This document shows positions 8,888 to 19,078 of a stretch of 64,000 bases of DNA, one piece after another (position 1 is the stretch's first letter; each line of letters begins with the position of its first letter). The notes under the pieces were generated by a model. The model did no database searches and had not been told where the DNA came from. It saw only the letters and a program-made list of their open reading frames with translations. Source of the DNA: Actinomycetes bacterium. GTDB lineage: Bacteria; Actinomycetota; Acidimicrobiia; Acidimicrobiales; RAAP-2. The DNA lies in NCBI GenBank assembly GCA_021791845.1, contig JAJYVT010000002.1, positions 1-64,000 on the forward strand, in the 5' to 3' direction. The position numbers and the translations under genes are program-made.

Positions 8888-9961
8888 GTGCAGCACCACG
8901 GGGCAGTGCTCGACGCCGAGCCGGGACCTCGGCCGGCGGAGGAGAGCGTGCGAGCCGGCTCCAGGGCCGATCGCATCGTGGTGGCGTTGGCGGTGGCCAC
9001 GATGGTCTGCGCGTACGCGTTGGTCGTGCTCGGCAGCACCGTCCGGGTGACCAACTCGGGGATGGGCTGCCCCAGCTGGCCCCTGTGCTACGGGCACCTC
9101 GGCCCGGTCGACCGGTTCCACGCGCTCTTGGAGCAGTCGCATCGCTACCTGGTGGCGTTGGTGACGGTGGGTGCCTTCTCGACCGCGGCCGTCGCTCGCC
9201 GGGCGCGGGCCCGGGCCCGACGCGTGGCGTTCGTTCCCGCCGCTGCGGCCGCCGCCCTGGTCGTCTTCCAGGCCGCGCTCGGCGCGCTGACCGTGTTGGC
9301 GAAGAACGCGCCGTGGACCGTGTCGGTCCATCTCGTCGTCGGTCTCGTCTTCTTCGCCGTCACGGTGGTCACGGCGGTCGCCGCCGTCCGAGGGCCCCGT
9401 GGCCGGTGGTCGCCGGGAGCGGTCGGAGGATGGGGGTGGGCGGCGCTGGCTGCAACGCTCGCCACCATCGTGGGCGGGACCCTCGTGGTCGCCAAGGGCG
9501 CCGGAGCCGCCTGTCCCGCGTGGCCGCTGTGCCCCTCGTCAGCGTCAGGCCTCGCCGACTGGCAGCTGGTCCACCGCTCGCTCGCCGGCATCGCCGCCAT
9601 CAGCCTGGCCGGGTTCGTCGTCAGCCGCTGGCGGGCGCTGGCCGGCCGGTGGCGCGTCGCCGCCGGCGGGACCGTCGGGCTGTTCGTCGCCGTCGCTGGC
9701 TTCGGCGCGGCCAGCGCGCTCTCGCGCGCCGCGCCGGCCTGGCAGGACGTCCACCTGGCGATGGTCGCCCTCCTCTGGGGGTTCGTGGTGGCCACGGTGA
9801 CGGCACTGGCGACCGGCGCCGCGACGGCACTGGCGACCGGCGCCGCGACGGCACTGGCGACCGGCGCCGCGACGGCACCGGCGACCGGCGCCGCGACGGC
9901 ACCGGCGACCGGTGCCCCCTCGCACCGGCCGGCGGTGACGGGAGAGGGGTCGTCTGGTTAA
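8888..9961 (+). CDS. ctaA: Heme A synthase (CtaA/Cox15 family)
   Basis: A 357-residue integral membrane enzyme that oxidises the C8 methyl of heme O to make heme A for aa3-type cytochrome oxidase. Two pseudo-symmetric halves are visible, each with a cysteine-containing loop after a membrane helix: STVRVTNSGMGCPSWPLC and AKGAGAACPAWPLC. Heme-ligand histidine segments are QSHRYL, VSVHLVVG, VHRSLAG and QDVHLAM. There are about eight transmembrane helices. The start is GTG 8888. The last 50 residues are unusual: an in-frame 24-bp tandem repeat codes TALATGAA/TAPATGAA units after the last helix, followed by a short polar tail. Heme O synthase (ctaB) is not in the window. Confidence 0.93.
   Translation: MQHHGAVLDAEPGPRPAEESVRAGSRADRIVVALAVATMVCAYALVVLGSTVRVTNSGMGCPSWPLCYGHLGPVDRFHALLEQSHRYLVALVTVGAFSTAAVARRARARARRVAFVPAAAAAALVVFQAALGALTVLAKNAPWTVSVHLVVGLVFFAVTVVTAVAAVRGPRGRWSPGAVGGWGWAALAATLATIVGGTLVVAKGAGAACPAWPLCPSSASGLADWQLVHRSLAGIAAISLAGFVVSRWRALAGRWRVAAGGTVGLFVAVAGFGAASALSRAAPAWQDVHLAMVALLWGFVVATVTALATGAATALATGAATALATGAATAPATGAATAPATGAPSHRPAVTGEGSSG
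9799..9918 (+). repeat. Five tandem 24-bp repeats at the 3' end of ctaA
   Basis: The unit GACGGCACTGGCGACCGGCG plus CCGC is repeated from 9799 in five consecutive 24-base copies. Copies 1-3 are identical, copies 4-5 change CTG to CCG, and the last ends in GGTGCC. Each unit adds eight Ala/Thr/Gly residues without breaking the frame, as in a variable-number repeat. Confidence 0.95.
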
Positions 9962-9987
9962 ACGAATAACCGGATGTCCGTACATTT

Positions 9988-9996
9988 TGCTACAAT
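9988..9996 (+). promoter_or_regulatory. Extended -10 promoter for the TauE gene (leaderless transcript)
   Basis: TGCTACAAT at 9988-9996 matches an extended -10 element (TGNTANNNT) in an A/T-rich stretch (9961-9998) within otherwise GC-rich DNA. The predicted start of transcription, 6-7 bases downstream, falls on the GTG start codon at 10003, so the message would have no leader. No clear -35 is seen. Confidence 0.6.
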
Positions 9997-10002
9997 AGGG
10001 GT

Positions 10003-10842
10003 GTGACCCCGCTCGACTTCGTGATCTCCCTGGCACTGATCTCGGTTGCCGCCGGGGTCCTCGGGTCGTTGGTCGGGCTCGGAGGCGGGGTGGTGATCGT
10101 GCCCGTCCTCACGCTCCTGTACCACGTGGACATCCGCCTGGCCATCGGGGCGAGCATCGTGTCGGTGATCGCCACCTCGAGCGGGGCGGCGGCCGCCTAC
10201 GTGCGCGAGCGGATGACCAATCTCCGGGCCGGGATGTTCCTCGAGATCGCCACGACGACGGGGGCGGTCAGCGGCGCTTACCTCACGACCCTGCTGCCCA
10301 CCCGGTTCCTGTTCGTCTTCTTCGGGCTCGTGCTCGCCTACTCCTCGTTCGCCACGTTCCGGCGGCGCCACGTCGCCGAGCCCCTGACGGTGTCGAACGA
10401 CCGGCTCGCCAACTACTTCGACCTGCACGGCTCCTACTTCGACGCGGCCGAGCAGCGCGAGATCCCCTACAAGGTGGTCGGCACCAGGATGGGGCTCGCC
10501 CTCATGTACGTCGCCGGGTTGGTGAGCGCCCTGCTCGGCATCGGCTCGGGGGCCCTGAAGGTCCCGGCCATGGACAGCGCCATGCACCTCCCGATGAAGG
10601 TGTCGTCGGCCACCAGCAACTTCATGATCGGGGTCACCGCCGCCGCCAGCGCCGGGGTCTACTTCATGCGGGGACAGATCGACCCCATCATCGCCGCCCC
10701 CGTGGCGGCCGGGGTGCTCCTCGGGGCGACGGTGGGCGCGCGGGTGCTGGGCCGGATCGCGAGCAGGACCGTCCGGCTGGTGTTCGTGGTGGTCCTCGTC
10801 GTCATCTCCCTCGAGATGCTGCAGAAAGGAGTCTTCCCGTGA
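10003..10842 (+). CDS. TauE/SafE-family membrane transporter
   Basis: A 279-residue membrane protein of the TauE/SafE (DUF81) anion export/permease family. It starts with the family signature GVLGSLVGLGGGVVIVP in the first repeat and has a second repeat with SALLGIGSGALKVPAM, the two inverted glycine-rich motifs of the family. There are about seven or eight helices, with a cytoplasmic insert near residues 125-160. Family members export sulfite, sulfoacetate or related organic anions, but the substrate here is not evident. It overlaps the next gene by GTGA and is probably co-transcribed with it. Confidence 0.88.
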   Translation: MTPLDFVISLALISVAAGVLGSLVGLGGGVVIVPVLTLLYHVDIRLAIGASIVSVIATSSGAAAAYVRERMTNLRAGMFLEIATTTGAVSGAYLTTLLPTRFLFVFFGLVLAYSSFATFRRRHVAEPLTVSNDRLANYFDLHGSYFDAAEQREIPYKVVGTRMGLALMYVAGLVSALLGIGSGALKVPAMDSAMHLPMKVSSATSNFMIGVTAAASAGVYFMRGQIDPIIAAPVAAGVLLGATVGARVLGRIASRTVRLVFVVVLVVISLEMLQKGVFP

Positions 10843-11375
10843 CCGACGCGCCCGCCGGGACCGGCAGTTCGCACGGGCAGGTCCCCGTGGAGCCTCCGGG
10901 GGGCGGTCCGGACGGAGCACCTGGAGGTGAGCCGGGACACCGGAGCCGGCGGCGCCAGCACACCCCCGAAGAGGCGGCGCTGATGGAGGAGAAGGTCCGC
11001 AAGGTCGAGGTCGCGATCAGCCTGGTCCTGCGGGTCGGCGTCGTCGTGAGCGTCCTCGTCATCGCCGTCGGGCTCGGGCTGATGTTCGCCCACCACAGCG
11101 CCTACGTCCCGCTCCGCGGGCACTTCTCTTACCACGAGCTCACGTCGAAGACGACGCCGTTCCCGCACTCGCTCTCGTCCCTCGGGCACTCGATCGCCGC
11201 GGGGGAGGGACGTGGGATCGTGGTGCTCGGCGTGCTGATCCTGATCCTCACGCCGGTGCTGCGGGTGGCAGTCGGCGTGCTGTCCTTCCTCTACGAGAAG
11301 GACCCGCCCATGGCCATCGTCACGCTGTACGTCCTGGTCGTGCTCGTCGGCTCGTTCTTCCTCGCCGGAGCCTGA
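10839..11375 (+). CDS. DUF1634 membrane protein
   Basis: A 178-residue protein. About 50 hydrophilic residues rich in Gly/Pro/Arg are followed by three membrane helices (about 58-80, 125-147 and 158-177). The C-terminal part (LRVGVVVSVLVIAVGL, GRGIVVLGVLILILTPVLRV, FLYEKDPPMAIVTLYVLVVL) matches the DUF1634 pattern. DUF1634 genes very commonly follow TauE-type genes, so this is probably an accessory subunit of that transporter. The GTG start lies inside the TauE stop (GTGA), preceded by an AAAGGAG ribosome site. It converges on the next gene with only 9 bp between. Confidence 0.85.
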   Translation: MTDAPAGTGSSHGQVPVEPPGGGPDGAPGGEPGHRSRRRQHTPEEAALMEEKVRKVEVAISLVLRVGVVVSVLVIAVGLGLMFAHHSAYVPLRGHFSYHELTSKTTPFPHSLSSLGHSIAAGEGRGIVVLGVLILILTPVLRVAVGVLSFLYEKDPPMAIVTLYVLVVLVGSFFLAGA

Positions 11376-11384
11376 GCTCGTACC

Positions 11385-11795
11385 TCACCGCCCGGTCTCG
11401 AGGCGGTCGGCGAACGGCGAGCCCGGAGGCTGGGGCAGGTCGGACGCCAGGGTGTCGAGGTCCCCGGTGTGCCGGGCCACGAGGGCCGCTTCGATGCGCC
11501 GGATCCCCTCGTCCAGGCCGAGCCGCCCCTGGGCCATCGCCTCGCCGATCGCTCTTGCCGTACGGTCCCGCTCGGCGTCGGACGCCAACGTGCGTGCCGG
11601 GCAGCGGCGCGTCTGCGGCCGGCTCCGGCCGCCCCCTCCGGCGACGCGATGGGCGTGCCGGTCGTCGACGCGTGAGGCGGCCCGGTCGTCGGCCCGGTCG
11701 TCGGCGCGGGACAGCTCCCGTGCGGCGAAGGCGGCGATCTGGGCCAGCTCGTAGACCACCACGAGCATGACTGCAGCGAGCACGACCTCGATCAT
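11385..11795 (-). CDS. DUF1707 (SHOCT-like) small membrane protein
   Basis: A 136-residue protein. An N-terminal membrane helix (residues 1-25) is followed by an Arg/Asp-rich charged linker with imperfect DDRA repeats. A C-terminal DUF1707 domain follows (ASDAERDRTARAIGEAMAQG, then RLGLDEGIRRIEAALVARHTGDLDTLASDLP). DUF1707 is widespread in actinobacteria and of unknown function. Here it sits after the membrane anchor rather than before it. A TATCG-N5 dyad lies about 65 bp upstream of the ATG, suggesting shared control with the neighbouring MarR/ClC genes. Confidence 0.8.
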   Translation of the reverse strand: MIEVVLAAVMLVVVYELAQIAAFAARELSRADDRADDRAASRVDDRHAHRVAGGGGRSRPQTRRCPARTLASDAERDRTARAIGEAMAQGRLGLDEGIRRIEAALVARHTGDLDTLASDLPQPPGSPFADRLETGR

Positions 11796-11858
11796 CGGCG
11801 CTCCACTCCCTCACGGCGGGGCTCCGTCGAACTGGTGCGACCGCACCGCCGCCATTCA

Positions 11859-11873
11859 TATCGTAGTACGAGC
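11859..11873. promoter_or_regulatory. Candidate MarR operator, copy A
   Basis: TATCG-TAGTA-CGAGC, with an inner perfect palindrome TCGTAGTACGA (11861-11871). It lies upstream of the DUF1707 gene and just past the end of the MarR gene. It shares its pattern with the sites at 14186 and 14865. Confidence 0.5.
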
Positions 11874-11887
11874 GTTCTCTCGGCAAC

Positions 11888-12433
11888 CTACCCGCCCCGC
11901 GTGACGGGGAAACCATCGGGAGCGCCGGTGCGGGCGCCGGCTGCGTCGTCGACGTCGGTGCCGTCGTCGAGCTCGGCAGGGAGGTCGGGGAGGAGGGTGC
12001 CGCCGGCGAGCGAGCGCAGTTCGGAGAGGTGGAGCGCGGTGAGTCGCTCGAGGACGCGGGCTCCCTCGGCACGCAGCTGGACGTGGGCCAGTCGCCGGTC
12101 GTGCGGGTCGCCCGCCCGCCGCACCAACCCGGCCGCCTCGGCGCGATCGACGAGCCCGACGGCCGAGTGGTGCCGGAGCTGGAGGTAGTCGGCGATGTCG
12201 CCGATCGTGGGTCCCTCGGCGTCGTCGTGCCCGCGCACGGCCAGGAGAAGCTGATGTTGCGCGGGCGTGATCCCGGCCGCCCGGGCCTGGTCGCCGGACC
12301 ACGCCAGGAACCGGCGGATGCGCGTCCGGAAACGGAGGATCGCCCGGTAGTCGTCTGCCGTGAACGACGTTCGCTCGCGGTCGTTCCCGTTGCGCCCGTC
12401 GCGCCGTCCCCGGTCGTTCCGGGCCGGCGTCAC
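11888..12433 (-). CDS. MarR-family transcriptional regulator
   Basis: A 181-residue winged-helix regulator. The DNA-binding core is GITPAQHQLLLAVRG, TIGDIADYLQLRHHSAVGLVDRAEAAGLVRR, then the wing GDPHDRRLAHVQLRAEG, all standard MarR features. MarR proteins bind semi-palindromic sites as dimers and are released by small ligands. The GTG start at 12433 overlaps the stop of the ClC gene (GTGA), so both come from one message. Dyads of the form TATCG-N5-CGATA occur at three intergenic sites around this cluster and are candidate operators. Confidence 0.9.
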   Translation of the reverse strand: MTPARNDRGRRDGRNGNDRERTSFTADDYRAILRFRTRIRRFLAWSGDQARAAGITPAQHQLLLAVRGHDDAEGPTIGDIADYLQLRHHSAVGLVDRAEAAGLVRRAGDPHDRRLAHVQLRAEGARVLERLTALHLSELRSLAGGTLLPDLPAELDDGTDVDDAAGARTGAPDGFPVTRGG

Positions 12434-14175
12434 GGGTCCACCTCGCCGGTGGCGTCCTCGTCACCGGGGCCGGCGGCCGCCAGCGCGCCGGCGCCGTGAG
12501 CTTCATCGAGCCGGCGGACGCGAGCCCGACGGGACGCCCGGGCGCGCAGGCGCGCGGCCGGTCCCGAGGGCCAACGCAATGCCGGCGGCTGCAACGTGGA
12601 CTCGGCGATCCGCCGGCCGAGCACCTCGGCCATGGTGTCGCGAGCGATGACCCCCACCGGTTTGCCGCCCTCGGTGACCACCACGCTGGTGGCGTCCTTC
12701 TCGACGAGAAAGATCGCCAGCGCGTCCCGGAGGTACGAGAAGCGGTCCACGCTCCGCCCGGCCACGGCGGCGGGCTCCTCGGGCAACGGGTCCATGGCCT
12801 GGCCGGCGACGGCCGTTCGGAAGGGGTCCACCTCGGTGTCGAACTCGACGCGGAACCCTCGCCGCACCAGCTTGTCGGTCATCAGCCGCTCGGTGAGGGC
12901 GAGCTCGCCCACCACCTCGGCGATCCCGAGTGCGAGCAGCATGGGGATCAATAGGTGGATCGCCCCGGTGACCTCGATGGCGAAGACGGCGCCGGTGAGC
13001 GGTGCCCGTGCTGCGACTCCGAAGCTGGCGCCCATGGCCACCAGCGCGAACGCCGCCGGGGCGACGTGGAGCGAGGGGAACAGGTGGGCGAAGCCGATGC
13101 CGACCGTCTCGCCCATGGTCGCCCCGATGAGGAAGATCGGGGCGAGGGTGCCGCCGGAGGTGTTGGACGCCAGCGCGATCCACCACGAGAACAGCTTGGC
13201 CACGCAGAGGGCCGCAGCCGCCCCCAGGAGGAACCTCCCGTTCACGGCGTCGCTGATGGCCCAGTAGCCGACCGAGAGGGACCCGGGGACCGCCAACCCG
13301 ATGGTGGTGAACGCCACAGCGCCGATGAGCGGGTGGTACGCCTCGGGTACCGGCAGCCGCCGGAAGCAGCCTTCGAAGGCGAACAAGCCCTTGTTGAGCA
13401 CGATTGCCAACGCGCCGGCCGCCACCCCGAGCACGCAGAAGAGCGGGAGTTGGGGCGCGGTGTAGGTGATCGGGAAGGTGACGGCAAAGAGGGGGTGGCC
13501 GCCGAGGAGGAGCGTGTGGAGCTCGCTCGAGATGCCGGTCGCCAGCACCAGCGGCAGAAGGGCGCGGAGCGACCGCTCGAAGAGGAGGAGCTCGAAGGCG
13601 AGGATGATGGCGGCCACCGGGGTGTCGAACACGCCGGCCATGCCCGCCGCCGCTCCGGTGGCGAGGAGGATCCGACGCTCCGCAGGCGACACGCGGATCC
13701 ACTGACCGAGGAGCGAGCCGATGCACCCGCCGGTGACGATGATCGGCCCCTCGGCGCCGAACGGACCACCGGTGCCCATGGCCACCGCGGCCGACAACGG
13801 CTTGGCCAACAGGACGCGGGGCTTGATCCGGCTCTCCCTGAGCAGGATCGACTCGAGGGACTCGGGGATCCCGTGGCCCTTGATGACGGGGCTCCACAGA
13901 GCGAGCAGCGCCACGACCACGGCGCCCCCCACCCCGACGGCCACGAGCTCGGGGACGGGGTGGTAGTGGCGGAGGACGGGCAGCTGGAACCCGACCCGGT
14001 GGAGCAGGGCGAGATTGCTGATCAAGCCGACCAGCCGGACCACCATGAACGCCGCCACCCCGCCGACCCCACCCAGCACCACCCCCAGGAGGGCCAGCAG
14101 CATCATCCGGGCCCGGGATGCCCCGAGGCTCACCTCCGCGCTCGCGGAGGTCCCCCGTGGCCGGCGGAAGGTCAT
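12430..14175 (-). CDS. ClC-type chloride channel/transporter with C-terminal CBS region
   Basis: A 581-residue ClC protein. The ion-pathway motifs are visible: KGHGIPE (GxGIP position, with His in place of the Ser of E. coli ClC), GGPFGAEGPI carrying the gating glutamate, and SGGTLAPIFLIGA (GxFxP region). About ten or more helices are followed by a cytoplasmic region with a CBS-like segment (FLVEKDATSVVVTEGGKPVGVIARDTMAEVL). ClC proteins exchange Cl- for H+ or act as channels, and some bacterial ones export fluoride, although the fluoride-type signature is not seen here. It starts at ATG 14175 and is divergent from the DUF3565-DUF1971 gene. It is coupled to the downstream MarR gene. Confidence 0.9.
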   Translation of the reverse strand: MTFRRPRGTSASAEVSLGASRARMMLLALLGVVLGGVGGVAAFMVVRLVGLISNLALLHRVGFQLPVLRHYHPVPELVAVGVGGAVVVALLALWSPVIKGHGIPESLESILLRESRIKPRVLLAKPLSAAVAMGTGGPFGAEGPIIVTGGCIGSLLGQWIRVSPAERRILLATGAAAGMAGVFDTPVAAIILAFELLLFERSLRALLPLVLATGISSELHTLLLGGHPLFAVTFPITYTAPQLPLFCVLGVAAGALAIVLNKGLFAFEGCFRRLPVPEAYHPLIGAVAFTTIGLAVPGSLSVGYWAISDAVNGRFLLGAAAALCVAKLFSWWIALASNTSGGTLAPIFLIGATMGETVGIGFAHLFPSLHVAPAAFALVAMGASFGVAARAPLTGAVFAIEVTGAIHLLIPMLLALGIAEVVGELALTERLMTDKLVRRGFRVEFDTEVDPFRTAVAGQAMDPLPEEPAAVAGRSVDRFSYLRDALAIFLVEKDATSVVVTEGGKPVGVIARDTMAEVLGRRIAESTLQPPALRWPSGPAARLRARASRRARVRRLDEAHGAGALAAAGPGDEDATGEVDP

Positions 14176-14185
14176 GGCACGACCT

Positions 14186-14200
14186 TATCGCGACACGACA
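14186..14200. promoter_or_regulatory. Candidate MarR operator, copy B
   Basis: TATCG-CGACA-CGACA lies 11 bases upstream of the ClC ATG, between the divergent ClC and DUF3565-DUF1971 genes. Four of five bases of the right arm match the CGATA of copy C. Confidence 0.45.
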
Positions 14201-14230
14201 TACAAGCGGCCGATGGGGTAGGGTGAGGCC

Positions 14231-14887
14231 GTGGAGCGCGGGATCGTGTCGTTCCATCGGGACGTCGAAGGCGCTTGGGTGGCGCGGCTCGAGTGCGGCC
14301 ACCGTCAGCACGTGCGTCACCGGCCGCCCTTCCAGCTCCGTCCTTGGGTCGAGGACGCCGCCGGGCGTGCCGGCCGCCTGGGCACCCCCCTCGACTGCCC
14401 GTTGTGCGACCGGGCCGAACTGCCGGAAGGTCTCGGTCCAGTTCGTCGCCGGGTGGCATGGGACGCAGAGACGCTGCCGGCGGCCATGCGCCGAGAGCAT
14501 CGGGTCGGGCCGTCCACGTGGGCGGTGCTGCGGGTCGAATCGGGTCGCGTCCGGTTCGTCTCCGACCGGGGGGTGGGGCTCGACCCGGAAGGGGACCGTG
14601 AGGGCTCCCGCCTGCTCGAGGCCGGGTCAGAGCAGAACATCCCGCCGGGCGTGCCGCACCGGCTGGAGCTGTCGGGGCCGGTGCGCCTCACCCTCGACTT
14701 CTTCGCAGTGCCGGCCGCCGAAGCCGGAGAGCAGCATCCCGACGAACCCGAGTGCGAAGGCGGGGATCCTGCGTGCCTGGCCGGCTTGGTGTGCGAGGAG
14801 TGCGGTGCGGTCGTCGGGCCGGATCCCCACCGCCCCGGGTGCGGACGGGCCGGCACCGACAGTTTATCGGGTCACGATATGAGGTAG
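14231..14887 (+). CDS. DUF3565-DUF1971 fusion with C-terminal cysteine motif
   Basis: A 218-residue soluble protein. Residues 1-65 match DUF3565 (VSFHRDVEGAWVARLECGHRQHVRH, then RPWVE and LGTPLDCPLCDRAELP) with Cys/His pairs that could bind a metal. Residues 70-155 match DUF1971, a cupin-like domain also found in tellurite-resistance-type proteins (WAVLRVESGRVRF, IPPGVPHRLE, DFFAVP). The C-terminus adds CEECGAVV with a further Cys pattern, possibly a second metal site. The function is unknown. The start is GTG 14231. It is divergent from ClC across operator copy B and followed by a small unknown gene. Confidence 0.75.
   Translation: MERGIVSFHRDVEGAWVARLECGHRQHVRHRPPFQLRPWVEDAAGRAGRLGTPLDCPLCDRAELPEGLGPVRRRVAWDAETLPAAMRREHRVGPSTWAVLRVESGRVRFVSDRGVGLDPEGDREGSRLLEAGSEQNIPPGVPHRLELSGPVRLTLDFFAVPAAEAGEQHPDEPECEGGDPACLAGLVCEECGAVVGPDPHRPGCGRAGTDSLSGHDMR
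14865..14879. promoter_or_regulatory. Candidate MarR operator, copy C (perfect dyad)
   Basis: TATCG-GGTCA-CGATA is a perfect 5+5+5 inverted repeat inside the last codons of the DUF1971 gene and 48 bases upstream of the ATG of the next gene. It is the best copy of the motif seen around the MarR/ClC cluster. Confidence 0.5.
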
Positions 14888-14926
14888 TTGCACTGCAAGA
14901 GGATCTCGATCGGGAGAGGAGTCACG

Positions 14927-15487
14927 ATGAGCGACCAAGCCGAGATCCCCAGGAGTGTGACCGGAGCGAACGGAGCGAACGGTACGCCCCACCGGGAGGC
15001 AGCGGTGAGCCGAGCGACGCGATGGCAACCGGGTCGTCGCCTCCGGCGGCTGTGGACGGCGGTCACGTTCGCCGAACGGCGGCTGCGGGACCCCGCGGTG
15101 CACGACGACCGGTTCGACAGCTCCAGCTCTGCCGTGGTCGACGCGGCGTGCGCGCTGGTCACCGGTCGGGCCGCCGAGGGCTACGTCGCCGACGGGCGCA
15201 CCGTGCCGTACTGGGCCTGGGTCAATGCATTGGCGCACCGCCCGCACGAAGCGGTGGTGTCGCTCGCGATCCAGCGGCCCGAGGAGCCGTGGGCATGGGC
15301 GACCGTCGCCATCGCGGCGGAGCTGGAACGGCTCGAGCCGGAGGAGGTGTCGGCGCTGCGGGCCGCGGTGTTCGCACCGGCGGAGCTCGACGCCCTTGCC
15401 CGTCGGGGAGGCTCACCTGATGCCGTGCTCCGCTCCGTTCGCCGGCACGCGGCCGCCGCCCGCCAGGGACGGACGCGCACGGTGTGA
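14927..15487 (+). CDS. Hypothetical protein
   Basis: 186 residues, no family recognised. The ATG at 14927 is chosen because GAGAGGAG lies 7-8 bases upstream. An upstream ATG at 14888 has no ribosome site. The N-terminal 45 residues are disordered and repetitive (GANGANG), followed by a helical Ala/Glu/Arg-rich body with tryptophans (YWAWVNALAH, EEPWAWATVAIAAELERLEPEEV). No signal peptide or membrane helix. Dyad copy C lies just upstream, so it may be controlled with the MarR/ClC genes. Confidence 0.7.
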   Translation: MSDQAEIPRSVTGANGANGTPHREAAVSRATRWQPGRRLRRLWTAVTFAERRLRDPAVHDDRFDSSSSAVVDAACALVTGRAAEGYVADGRTVPYWAWVNALAHRPHEAVVSLAIQRPEEPWAWATVAIAAELERLEPEEVSALRAAVFAPAELDALARRGGSPDAVLRSVRRHAAAARQGRTRTV

Positions 15488-15569
15488 GAGGGGGGCGGCG
15501 ACCCTCGGGCGTGCGTCGGGCCGACCTGCCTCGGAAGGGAGGCCCCGAGCGGCGATAGCGTGGCGGTCC

Positions 15570-16277
15570 GTGGCCCTTGGCCCATTCGACGAGGTCGACG
15601 CCGTGGTGCTCGACGCCGGCGGCGTGCTCATGCTCCCCGACCCCGAGGCGTTCCGCCACCGGCTGGCGCCGTTCGGCGTGGTACCCGACGATGCTGCGTG
15701 CGTGCAGGCGCACTACGCCGGCGTCGCGGTGATCGACGGGCTGGGTGTGGCGGACTACGTCGAGGCCGATCGCAGCATGGCGCGGCTGTTCGGGGTCGAC
15801 GAGGCGGACGTCGATGCGGCGGCCGCCGCCATCGAGGCCGTCTATCTGGAGGAGCCCTTCGTTCCCATCCTCGGGGTGGCCGACGCCCTGCGGCGCCTCG
15901 AGGCGTCGGGGACGCTGCTGGCGGTCGTGTCGAACGCGACGGGTCGGGTGGAAGCGGACCTGGCGGTCCACGGCATCTGTGCCGTCGGTGACGGTGACGG
16001 TGGGCGCGCGGGCGGTCCGGCCGAGGTGACCGTGGTGGTCGACTCCCACCACGTCGGGGTGGAGAAGCCCGACCCCGCCATCTTCGCCGTGGCGCTCGAG
16101 GCGCTGGGGGTGGAGCCGCGCCGGTGCCTCTATGTGGGTGACTCCGTGCACTTCGACGTCAACGGGGCGGCAGCGGCCGGGCTCCGGGCCGTGCACCTGA
16201 CCCTCCTCGCCCAATGCGCCGGCGAGCATCTGCACTTTCCTGCGCTCGGCGCGTTCGTCGACGCCTTCCTCGGCTGA
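15570..16277 (+). CDS. HAD-superfamily hydrolase
   Basis: A 235-residue haloacid-dehalogenase-fold phosphatase. Motif I is VVLDAGGVL (nucleophile Asp; the second Asp is replaced by Gly, as in many DxGGVL members), motif II is VVSNATG, motif III is the Lys of VEKPDPAIF, and motif IV is YVGDSVHFDVNGA. An alpha-helical cap lies between motifs I and II. The substrate is unknown. The GTG at 15570 is used, because upstream sequence in this frame is non-homologous. It is the last gene with typical high-GC codon use before the A/T-richer island. Confidence 0.88.
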   Translation: MALGPFDEVDAVVLDAGGVLMLPDPEAFRHRLAPFGVVPDDAACVQAHYAGVAVIDGLGVADYVEADRSMARLFGVDEADVDAAAAAIEAVYLEEPFVPILGVADALRRLEASGTLLAVVSNATGRVEADLAVHGICAVGDGDGGRAGGPAEVTVVVDSHHVGVEKPDPAIFAVALEALGVEPRRCLYVGDSVHFDVNGAAAAGLRAVHLTLLAQCAGEHLHFPALGAFVDAFLG

Positions 16278-16390
16278 CGGGGCACCGTCGGCGTGTAACG
16301 CCGCGTCATTCCTGCGGCAGTGAGTGTACGGGCGGGCCCCGTGGGAGGCGAGGCCTTCGCGCAGTCATTTGCCGTGCTGCGACCAGACGA

Positions 16391-16433
16391 TTGACGCGGC
16401 CCACTGGAATCTGGTATACCAGATTCCAGTGGG
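16391..16433. promoter_or_regulatory. Autoregulated promoter: 34-bp perfect palindrome over -10, start site and GTG
   Basis: Bases 16400-16433 form a perfect 34-bp palindrome centred on CTGGTATACCAG, the TGGTnnACCA-type core of GntR/FCD operators. A promoter reads through it: TTGACG (16391-16396), 18 bases, TATACC (16415-16420). The predicted transcription start is at about 16427-16429, on the GTG start codon, which is itself inside the right arm. Bound repressor would cover -10, start site and start codon. A second small dyad GTATC-G-GATAC follows at 16435-16445. Confidence 0.85.
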
Positions 16434-17106
16434 CGTATCGGATACCAAACTGCAGTTGCCGTCTCGTGCGGCCGCTGTTGCCGACGAACTCGAGCGAGCC
16501 ATCCTGAGCGGTGAGATTCGTCCAGGCGAACCGCTAGTCGAGCGGACGTTGGCGGAGAGTTTCGGTATCTCGAAGACGCCCGTGCGGGAAGCCCTCAAAG
16601 TCCTGTCCCATCGGGGCTTCGTGGAGGCCGCCCCATATCGGGCCATCAGGGTGCGGCTAATCAGCGCTCAGGAAGCTCGCCATATCTATCAGGTGCGCAG
16701 CCTGATCGAACCCGAAGCCGTTCGACTGGCTGTGCCGTACCACGACGAAGAGTCGCTCCGGCGAGCGGCTGCGGCCCTGGACGCAGCCGAGGCCGCGAAG
16801 CGAGATCTTGCAGCGAAGGCAAGTGCAAACCGGCGCTTTCACCGCGCATTGTATGAGCCCTGCCCAAACCGACTTCTGTGCTCTCTTGCCGATGGCATTC
16901 AGGGCCAGGTAGCTCTCATCAGCGTTACCGCATGGATGAACTCGTCAACCTGGACCGACGAAGCTGCCGAGCATTCCGCAATTCTGTTGGCTCTCCGGTC
17001 CGGGGACCCCGAACTCGCTGCAGGGCGCCTTAGGAACCACATCGAGAAGTTCACGACAAATATCGCCACCGGAACGGCGACGAACGCTGTCTCCAGCGAG
17101 ATCTAG
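16429..17106 (+). CDS. GntR-family (FCD/FadR subfamily) regulator of the island
   Basis: A 225-residue regulator. The N-terminal winged helix is VADELERAILSGEIRPGEPL, then LAESFGISKTPVREALKVLSHRGFVEAA. The C-terminal FCD effector domain has the metal-site pattern (YQVRSLIEPEAVRLA, NRRFHRALYE, EHSAILLALRSGD). FCD regulators typically sense an organic or sugar acid and repress its catabolic operon. The GTG at 16429 lies in the palindromic operator and is probably leaderless. An upstream reading to 16324 would place the operator inside the gene and is less likely. As the first gene of the island it is the obvious pathway repressor. Confidence 0.92.
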   Translation: MGVSDTKLQLPSRAAAVADELERAILSGEIRPGEPLVERTLAESFGISKTPVREALKVLSHRGFVEAAPYRAIRVRLISAQEARHIYQVRSLIEPEAVRLAVPYHDEESLRRAAAALDAAEAAKRDLAAKASANRRFHRALYEPCPNRLLCSLADGIQGQVALISVTAWMNSSTWTDEAAEHSAILLALRSGDPELAAGRLRNHIEKFTTNIATGTATNAVSSEI

Positions 17107-17125
17107 CCACGTGTGGGGTGGGAAC

Positions 17126-19078
17126 GTGAATGAGTTCGAGCCGGTGCTATCAGAGCCGCCCCGAGCTGGTGTGCTGCCGCAGTTCATTATCAACCAGGCG
17201 CAATTTCATGCACGGGAGAGGCACCAGATCGACATTTCCACAGCACACCAGCATAAGAAGGAGCTGCGTGAAAGGCTCGCCGACTCACTCGGCATCACAC
17301 GACTTCCGCGCTGTGAAGCCTCCGCAAGGTCTCTTGGCGTAATCGAGCGAAGAGACTTCACGATTGAAAAGCTCGTCTTCGAGGCGACGCCTGGCCTCCC
17401 AGTGCCCGCACATCTCTACGCGCCGCGGGCTCCCGGACCACATCCTGCGGTCGTCCACGTCCCCGGGCACTGGATGGAGAACGCGAAGCTGGCACCGGAC
17501 ATCCAGCGAATGAACCTCGAGCTCGTGCAGAACGGCGTTGTCACGCTCTGCTACGACCCGCTGGGGCAGGGCGAGCGTCGAGTTGGTTGGCACCAGCACG
17601 GGCAGCTGGCGCCGTTGCTGGTCGGATTCACGTCAATGGCGGTGATGGTTCGCGACAGCCTGGCGGGAATCGACATCCTGTGCTCACGTGAGGAAGTGGA
17701 CTCCTCATGCATCGGCATGATGGGTGCGTCCGGCGGAGGCTTCTCTACGATCTTTGCATCTGCGCTCGACGACAGGATTAGTGCTGCCGCGATTGGGTGC
17801 ATCGTCAATTCCCACGTTGGGCAACTGCGCGATGCTGCTTATGGGACCGGATGGGACAGCTGGGTCGATCTGTGCAACCAGGTCCCTCGGCTCTGCCTTA
17901 TAGGCACGATGGCCGAGATACTCTCAGCCACGCTTCCGCGCAACCTTCTGGTTGCCAACGCGGACCATGATCCGGCCATTCCGATCAGTAGCGCTTTGGA
18001 GGTTGCGCACGAATTGGCCGGCATCGCAGAAGACCAAGACTGTGGTGACAGCTTCGAGTTCGCCATCGTGCCTGGTGGCCACGGACTTCATCCGGCGATG
18101 CGCGACGTCATGGGAAGCTTCATGGTCAGCCGGCTTGGACGCCAGGTGCATCATCACCTGCGCGATACGACAGCACTTCTGGCGCCCGAGTGGGACGTGG
18201 TCCACAATCGCGCGACTGCTCTTCGTCCCCAGAGTATGCAAAGGCGCCCCTCGGAGGATGCGTGCTGGGACGAGCCCGTGGACTCAAATAGGCCCGTCGT
18301 CGCGCTCGCTCAATCCTTGGCGATCCAATGCCGAACGACCAGATCGGCGTGTGACGCAAGCACGTTGAGGGGTCTTCTCGGTCCGTACCCCGATAAGCCG
18401 CAAGAGCGGCCATCGGTATCACTTCACGTCCCGACTGCGAACGGATACGTGCAACGTGTCCGCATTCCAATCGAGGAGGGAATCTACCTCGATGCGGCTC
18501 TCGCACTGCCACGGAACTGGTCGGACCAGCTCCCGCCCGTCTTCGTGATGCTCGATGAGGGCGGAAAGAGTCAAGCAGCCGCCTCACGTGAAGTAGAAGT
18601 GGCGCTGGCCCTCGGATGCGCCGCGCTACTTCCGGACCTACGAGGCACTGGGGAGATGGCAGCTTCGGAGTTTGAAGTTGCCAGCGGAGCATGGATGCTC
18701 GAGAGAGATCTCTTCAACCAGCGGCTGTGCGACACGTTCGGTGCGATTGACTTTCTCTCCAATCGCTACTCAACGGGCGCGCAGATCGACAAGGGGCGCA
18801 TCGTCCTATGGGGAAACGATGCGTTCGGGTTCCTGGCACTGGTCGCGGCCGCACTCGACGACCGTGTCGCTGCGGTGGGCGTGGGTCGGTTGGAGTCGCT
18901 CGAGGACTTGCTCGGAGAGAGCTCCGACTGTACCCCGATGGCGTATCGATACGGCCTGCTTCACGTAGTCGACGTGCCGCAACTGGTGGATCTCATGCGC
19001 CCGCGGAAGGCCTTCATCGGGGTGAAGGCCTCCGACCTGAGCGAAGTGATCCCGCTCGCCACCCAGGGCAGCCGATAG
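17126..19078 (+). CDS. Two-domain alpha/beta-hydrolase (acetyl-xylan-esterase/Abhydrolase_7-like)
   Basis: About 650 residues. The N-terminal domain has a full hydrolase triad: nucleophile elbow GASGGG, acid ADHDPAIP, and His in PGGHGLHP. PGHWMENAKLAPDIQ and YDPLGQGER resemble the acetyl-xylan-esterase-like bacterial group. The C-terminal half (from about residue 445) repeats the fold, but the elbow reads GNDAFG with no serine, so it is probably non-catalytic. It has no signal peptide, so the enzyme acts on an imported ester or lactone in the cytoplasm. The start is GTG 17126 with GGGGTGGG just upstream; GTG 17111 is an alternative. It follows gntR by about 20 bp. Confidence 0.8.
   Translation: MNEFEPVLSEPPRAGVLPQFIINQAQFHARERHQIDISTAHQHKKELRERLADSLGITRLPRCEASARSLGVIERRDFTIEKLVFEATPGLPVPAHLYAPRAPGPHPAVVHVPGHWMENAKLAPDIQRMNLELVQNGVVTLCYDPLGQGERRVGWHQHGQLAPLLVGFTSMAVMVRDSLAGIDILCSREEVDSSCIGMMGASGGGFSTIFASALDDRISAAAIGCIVNSHVGQLRDAAYGTGWDSWVDLCNQVPRLCLIGTMAEILSATLPRNLLVANADHDPAIPISSALEVAHELAGIAEDQDCGDSFEFAIVPGGHGLHPAMRDVMGSFMVSRLGRQVHHHLRDTTALLAPEWDVVHNRATALRPQSMQRRPSEDACWDEPVDSNRPVVALAQSLAIQCRTTRSACDASTLRGLLGPYPDKPQERPSVSLHVPTANGYVQRVRIPIEEGIYLDAALALPRNWSDQLPPVFVMLDEGGKSQAAASREVEVALALGCAALLPDLRGTGEMAASEFEVASGAWMLERDLFNQRLCDTFGAIDFLSNRYSTGAQIDKGRIVLWGNDAFGFLALVAAALDDRVAAVGVGRLESLEDLLGESSDCTPMAYRYGLLHVVDVPQLVDLMRPRKAFIGVKASDLSEVIPLATQGSR

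Follow-up and report, generated by a model that had tools for sequence, protein, structure and literature searches.

The question raised by this locus is which regulator acts on three inverted repeats of the form TATCG-N5-CGATA, and on which genes. The repeats lie around a gene pair for a MarR-family regulator and a ClC anion transporter, in a stretch of 64,000 nucleotides from an Actinomycetes bacterium (order Acidimicrobiales; contig JAJYVT010000002.1, positions 1 to 64,000), referred to below as the window. Their positions as reported in the initial annotation, 11859, 14186 and 14865, were verified. Very probably, the dyads are operators of the cluster's own MarR, which would be an autoregulated repressor with a small local regulon. 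The features concerned are the following.

11385..11795, minus strand: DUF1707 protein (55.8 bits, cut-off 27.6); possibly also a target of the 11859 site.
11859..11873, no strand assigned: predicted MarR operator in the gap between MarR and DUF1707; 18.6 bits, rank 2 of the window.
11888..12433, minus strand: MarR-family regulator of 181 amino acids, predicted repressor (PF12802, MarR_2, 54.8 bits, cut-off 27).
12430..14175, minus strand: ClC anion transporter or channel of the GHGIP subtype (Voltage_CLC, 251.3 bits, cut-off 24.8).
14186..14200, no strand assigned: predicted MarR operator between ClC and the divergently oriented DUF3565-DUF1971 gene, which are 55 bp apart; 14.0 bits, rank 3 of the window.
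14231..14887, plus strand: DUF3565-DUF1971 protein of the YeaR/TehB type (DUF1971, 39.8 bits, cut-off 23.1; weak TehB match).
14865..14879, no strand assigned: predicted MarR operator and perfect dyad, among the three positions of the genome that come within one mismatch; rank 1 of the window, at 22.4 bits.
14927..15487, plus strand: orphan protein without Pfam or NCBIfam match; possibly also a target of the 14865 site.

The gene context holds as first described, and the MarR gene is coupled to ClC by open reading frames overlapping by 4 bp. DUF3565-DUF1971, which carries a CxxC...HxPGC stretch at its C-terminus, is transcribed divergently from ClC and shares the 14186 site with it. The 14865 dyad does precede the 14927 gene, being located about 47 bp 5′ of its ATG, with the correction that it lies within the final codons of DUF3565-DUF1971.

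The strongest evidence comes from other genomes, most of them draft assemblies. Relatives of the MarR protein were found in 75 of the 298 genomes of the order, and also in some genomes elsewhere in the phylum. At 74 loci outside the training set described below, plasmids included and a few of them near-identical, the dyad was present at the ClC/MarR promoter of 51/52 ClC-adjacent MarR loci, versus 3/22 MarR loci without ClC. Similarly, a site of at least 16 bits was located within 345 bp around the MarR start in 20 of 41 held-out loci, compared with 3 of 261 control windows (Fisher 4e-17). Many of the remaining held-out loci are co-directional ClC-MarR operons, where the site is found upstream of ClC; the dyad thus stands at the ClC start in divergent and co-directional layouts alike. 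When ClC genes were surveyed in 60 relatives, each of the 17 MarR-adjacent ClCs proved to carry the site, 12 being scored by script and five with longer N-termini (G008, G011, G013, G016 and G018) being located separately. In MarR-bearing genomes, only 3 of 34 ClCs away from MarR have it (G046, at a contig edge, G051 and G027), and in genomes lacking a close MarR only 1 of 28, that of G048, which adjoins a damaged MarR relative. In G027 and G051 the dyad stands at a GHGIP ClC remote from the sole close MarR relative, a layout as expected for a MarR acting in trans. Conversely, the GHGIP-subtype ClC of G057 is accompanied by neither MarR nor dyad.

The association is not confined to the order. 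MarR relatives of about 35-48% identity were retrieved from plasmids of Rhizobium, Mesorhizobium, Sphingobium, Novosphingobium, Polymorphobacter, Rhodococcus and Burkholderiaceae and, where annotated, mostly adjoin a 'chloride channel protein'. The trio of an LRHHS-helix MarR, a dyad and a GHGIP ClC recurs in Rhizobium, Mesorhizobium, Sphingobium and Novosphingobium. Between the alphaproteobacterial ClC and MarR genes the dyad scores 20-36 bits (top 35.8; e.g. ATATATCGTGATACGATATAA in Rhizobium), while 2.2 Mb of simulated sequence contained zero sites of at least 25 bits. The motif scan of related genomes, proposed as a check by the initial annotation, shows the dyad accompanying ClC-MarR over genera, classes and phyla. 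Its idea of a small regulon including ClC and DUF3565-DUF1971 is supported as well, the latter gene being linked in other genera: after ClC in G013, G016 and G018, and after MarR in G064. The Rhodococcus locus (L301) has a MarR with strong sites and no adjoining ClC; a 35.7-bit dyad (L301:1755-1769) is flanked by a gene for a 50-amino-acid hypothetical protein and by one of the RGCVC family, with an SPFH gene close by, and these genes may be ClC-independent targets of the same MarR type.

Comparison of the copies sharpened the motif to a 15-bp consensus, TATCGT-N3-ACGATA, with ATATATCGTnnnACGATATAT as the best copies. A 21-bp weight matrix was built from 17 sites at MarR/ClC genes in other genomes, using no site of the window. 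This matrix ranks the dyads at 14865, 11859 and 14186 as first, second and third of the 64 kb, where simulated sequence gives expectations per 64 kb of 0, 0.018 and 0.22 at the respective scores. By the comparative consensus 14865 and 11859 are good sites and 14186, ahead of ClC, is the lowest-scoring, whereas against TATCG-N5-CGATA the sites at 11859, 14186 and 14865 have two, one and no mismatches. The exact dyad occurs once in the window (14865), versus 0.00 times in shuffles. At up to three mismatches, 84 matches were counted against a chance mean of 98.75, hence no excess, and therefore only strong sites are informative. Tandem dyads are common in relatives, 16 bp apart in L047, L048, L055, L058 and others, and 21 bp apart in L061 and L065.

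Sites were ranked genome-wide by pattern searches. Across all 3.55 Mb of the genome, no more than three positions come within one mismatch of the dyad: 14865 and 14186, which are 679 bp apart and belong to one cluster, and C150:8909. The last (C150:8909-8923; L002, L039:5910) is the second perfect dyad of the genome, TATCGTCTAACGATA. On one side it has a GPR1/FUN34/YaaH (SatP) gene, on the other an ArsR-type helix-turn-helix gene of the kind found 3′ of ClC-MarR in G012, G014 and G033. This locus is probably a further member of the regulon. A 15.8-bit match at C70:3927, located at an apparent aromatic-degradation cluster, was judged unrelated. In G056, a relative at the level of the order (L088-L102), 16 near-matches to the dyad were counted genome-wide versus 1 for a reversed control; this could reflect a regulon of greater size or an effect of composition, and the gene context is uninformative.

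The Pfam match of the MarR protein exceeds the curated cut-off, and a palindromic operator was predicted computationally at its own or its target's promoter, both as in members of the MarR family. Curated NCBIfam models gave weak matches below cut-off, PecS and HucR not being among them. The protein contains no cysteine; its recognition helix is LRHHSAVGLVDRAEAAGLV, and the region LRHHS(A/V)V(G/E)LVDRAE is almost invariant among its relatives. Searching genome contigs with the single protein gave one weak relative only. A MarR paralogue of 68-70% identity with the same helix is encoded at C70:17499-17918 (L035), adjoining an MscS-type channel gene, with no ClC or dyad nearby.

Possible promoter elements were read at the dyads. 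The 11859 site overlaps a possible -10 element of DUF1707, TACGAT, on the minus strand. Read by eye, the 14186 site overlaps TAAGGT (14182-14187, minus strand), a leaderless-type -10 element six bases from the ClC ATG, as well as ACGACA (14195-14200), a possible -35 element of DUF3565-DUF1971, for which TAGGGT was likewise noted by eye six bases ahead of the GTG. Since a sigma-70 promoter scan returned no promoter at the three dyad sites and the elements were read by eye, all are putative. An explanation at the RNA level found no support, as there was no Rfam match in 9000-18000 and no RNA structure at the three dyad sites beyond that of shuffles (z -1.2 to 0.4).

From these data we infer the following mechanism. 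A MarR dimer would bind TATCGT-N3-ACGATA and, at 14186, occupy the DNA at the starts of both the ClC-MarR operon and the divergent DUF3565-DUF1971 gene. Both promoters of the 55-bp gap look leaderless, and a bound dimer would therefore block both. ClC, MarR itself and DUF3565-DUF1971 would be repressed in this way until a signal frees the DNA; release by a ligand would then raise the three jointly. For the other two sites, the likeliest role is control of DUF1707 (11859) and of the 14927 gene (14865), or else that of auxiliary operators.

Several observations weigh against this explanation. In G006, a MarR of 75% identity on contig C61 apparently adjoins DUF3565-DUF1971 with neither ClC nor dyad, and the dyad is absent from the vicinity of several MarRs that have the same recognition helix. 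Of the three dyads, the one at the ClC promoter is the weakest. Betaproteobacterial copies deviate from the motif (6.7 bits in L302, 16.0 in L309). Finally, because the training sites were first chosen for their likeness to the motif of the initial annotation, the window ranking by the matrix, taken on its own, involves some circularity, which affects the comparison of ClC-adjacent with other loci to a lesser degree. In G006, the MarR and DUF3565-DUF1971 genes are positioned at two contig ends (L041:1-140, L205:80-130) with a common long inverted repeat, GGTAGCTCTCGGGCGTC...

The inclusion of two small proteins in the regulon, as first suggested, stands in part. DUF1707 and the 14927 orphan have good sites at promoter position, but no counterpart is conserved beside ClC-MarR elsewhere: DUF1707 was not seen next to ClC-MarR in relatives, and the orphan has only weak relatives, none linked to ClC-MarR. 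Their control by MarR is thus less certain than that of the other genes. A possible, if rather doubtful, alternative is that 11859 and 14865 are not meant for these genes and are auxiliary operators, aiding ClC repression through looping or local concentration. The lack of conservation of both small genes would agree with this, as would the frequency of tandem sites in relatives and the benefit that a weak ClC site would draw from helpers. It fits less well with the promoter position of both sites before the following gene, with the long distances (679 and 2327 bp) and with the recurrence in L176, L315 and L316 of a site 3′ of MarR and ahead of the next gene, as at 11859.

It is unlikely that a regulator other than MarR uses the dyad to control ClC, with MarR as a mere neighbour. 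Such a regulator could account for the same-helix MarR relatives without a dyad and for dyad sites without a local MarR in several genomes. ClC dyads, however, occur only in genomes with MarR or a damaged relative; the two genomes with an unlinked dyad ClC still have MarR, and the G057 GHGIP ClC without MarR is also without dyad. Chance matches are highly improbable: while the motif at three mismatches is not commoner than chance and a site like 14186 alone is expected 0.22 times per 64 kb, ranks 1-3 all fall in one cluster, the motif is conserved across phyla, and at the ClC-promoter position chance is refuted by the ClC survey and the held-out contrast.

The transporter under this predicted control is of a distinct kind. 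Aligned to ClcA, the window ClC has His in place of Ser107 and Leu in place of the proton glutamate Glu203, while the gating Glu148 is kept; it does not have both Glu148 and Glu203, as a Cl-/H+ exchanger has. Nearly all ClCs with the dyad are of this one subtype, characterised by GHGIP, GPFGAEGP and a Leu where the proton glutamate would be, those of G039, G048 and G055 belonging to a different subtype. A fluoride reading was considered and set aside. CLC-F proteins have Asn or Met at the GxGIP position, where the window ClC has His, and fluoride exporters are often preceded by a fluoride (crcB) riboswitch; neither CLC-F residues nor, by Rfam in 9000-18000, a crcB riboswitch were present.

An ion or acid stress response, as initially suggested, was not established, and the gene neighbourhoods in relatives speak more for nitrate, nitrite and nitric oxide. 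They include an Rrf2 regulator with a globin (L310), cydAB for cytochrome bd (L306), HPP-family genes (L309, L316), nar genes (L317) and nosRZD (L318). HPP proteins are reportedly linked to nitrite transport, going by the title of a cited work. In several genomes the ClC-MarR operon or its vicinity also contains genes for hemerythrin-DUF2249 and for an ArsR-type helix-turn-helix protein whose cysteine pattern resembles that of SufR. YeaR, a DUF1971 protein, is among the most induced genes in nitrate-treated E. coli cultures (PMC5320621). Tentatively, the regulon may adjust the movement of an anion (nitrate, nitrite or chloride) under nitrogen-oxide stress, which is slightly favoured over acid or chloride stress because of the neighbouring genes and the YeaR induction. 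Counting against it, the nitrogen-oxide link is one of association only, and it is not seen in some neighbourhoods (Rhizobium ABC transporters, metB). In the Roseibium nos cluster (nosR, nosZ, nosD), a 28.8-bit dyad (L318:4374-4388) was observed near the annotated start of a MarR relative; it may possibly control the denitrification genes.

A halide, osmotic or acid-stress response, with pH, chloride or a weak acid as the signal, is a slightly weaker candidate. It would suit the biology of the ClC family (chloride or proton movement), the MscS-type channel adjoining some MarR relatives, including the paralogue in the window's own genome, and the SatP/YaaH acetate transporter adjoining the C150 site of the same genome. 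The loss of Glu203, on the other hand, argues against a standard Cl-/H+ exchanger, and many neighbours are nitrogen-oxide or respiratory genes. Extending the nitrogen-oxide proposal, one might speculate that a cross-phylum MarR regulon with one operator (ATATATCGTnnnACGATATAT) controls a ClC subtype with His for the anion-selecting Ser and without proton glutamate. This ClC would move nitrite or nitrate, not chloride, when the cell is under nitrosative or denitrification stress, and DUF1971, hemerythrin-DUF2249 and HPP proteins would act alongside it; in this full form the idea is rather unlikely.

In kind, the system is a MarR repressor-operator pair, a known type. The autorepressors SCO3205/SCO3204 (PMC3737563) and Ms6508 of M. 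smegmatis (PMC4143341) are likewise winged-helix MarR proteins divergent from or in an operon with their target, with palindromic operators in the common intergenic region and one to two sites over the promoters. Their operators are TTnAAnnnTCAA and ATACCTCTGTNACAGAGGTAT, whereas here the operator is TATCGT-N3-ACGATA, and their targets are a dioxygenase-like protein and ABC transporters instead of a ClC. A further comparison is with the urate-responsive PecS/HucR branch. PecS sites consist of TCGT/ACGA half-sites at a spacing of 5; the same halves are found here, but all conserved copies have a spacing of 3, which differs from the operator of the PecS/HucR branch, and the target is other than the PecM efflux pump. 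With ClcA of E. coli and Salmonella, a Cl-/H+ exchanger, the window ClC shares the Voltage_CLC fold, the gating Glu148 and the GxGIP and GxEGP motifs; it differs by GHGIP instead of GSGIP, by Leu at Glu203 and by predicted MarR transcriptional control. The YeaR-YoaG/NsrR nitric-oxide regulon of E. coli also includes a DUF1971 protein, and the hemerythrin-type proteins of related loci recall YtfE, but its control is by NsrR and NarL, without MarR or linkage to ClC. A literature search on MarR with ClC and on GHGIP, with most subscription journals outside its coverage, gave nothing relevant, and within it no description of the ClC subtype, the operator or the cross-phylum linkage was found. The AtCLCa structure paper, consulted on the selectivity residue, contained none of the terms looked for.

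Elsewhere in the window, a tandem repeat, ALATGAAT/APATGAAT, is encoded 3′-terminally (9600-9960) in the gene at 8888 and lies at the C-terminus of its product. Just past DUF1707, at 10003-11375, a TauE/SafE transporter gene overlaps a DUF1634 gene; the two are likely a two-gene export unit unconnected to the dyad. A search of an anti-phage database gave no match.

The physiological role of most bacterial ClCs is open, and a repressor-operator-ClC module that is conserved and defined by sequence shows with which other genes a given ClC is co-regulated. Identifying the MarR ligand would give the signal directly, and a clear question of anion selectivity is posed by the GHGIP subtype. As the operator is specific, with a handful of sites per genome, the regulon can be mapped in cultured Rhizobium, Mesorhizobium, Sphingobium and Rhodococcus. 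The combination of MarR, dyad and ClC is also present in soil bacteria that are only distantly related, and it offers a first handle on the purpose of these transporters.

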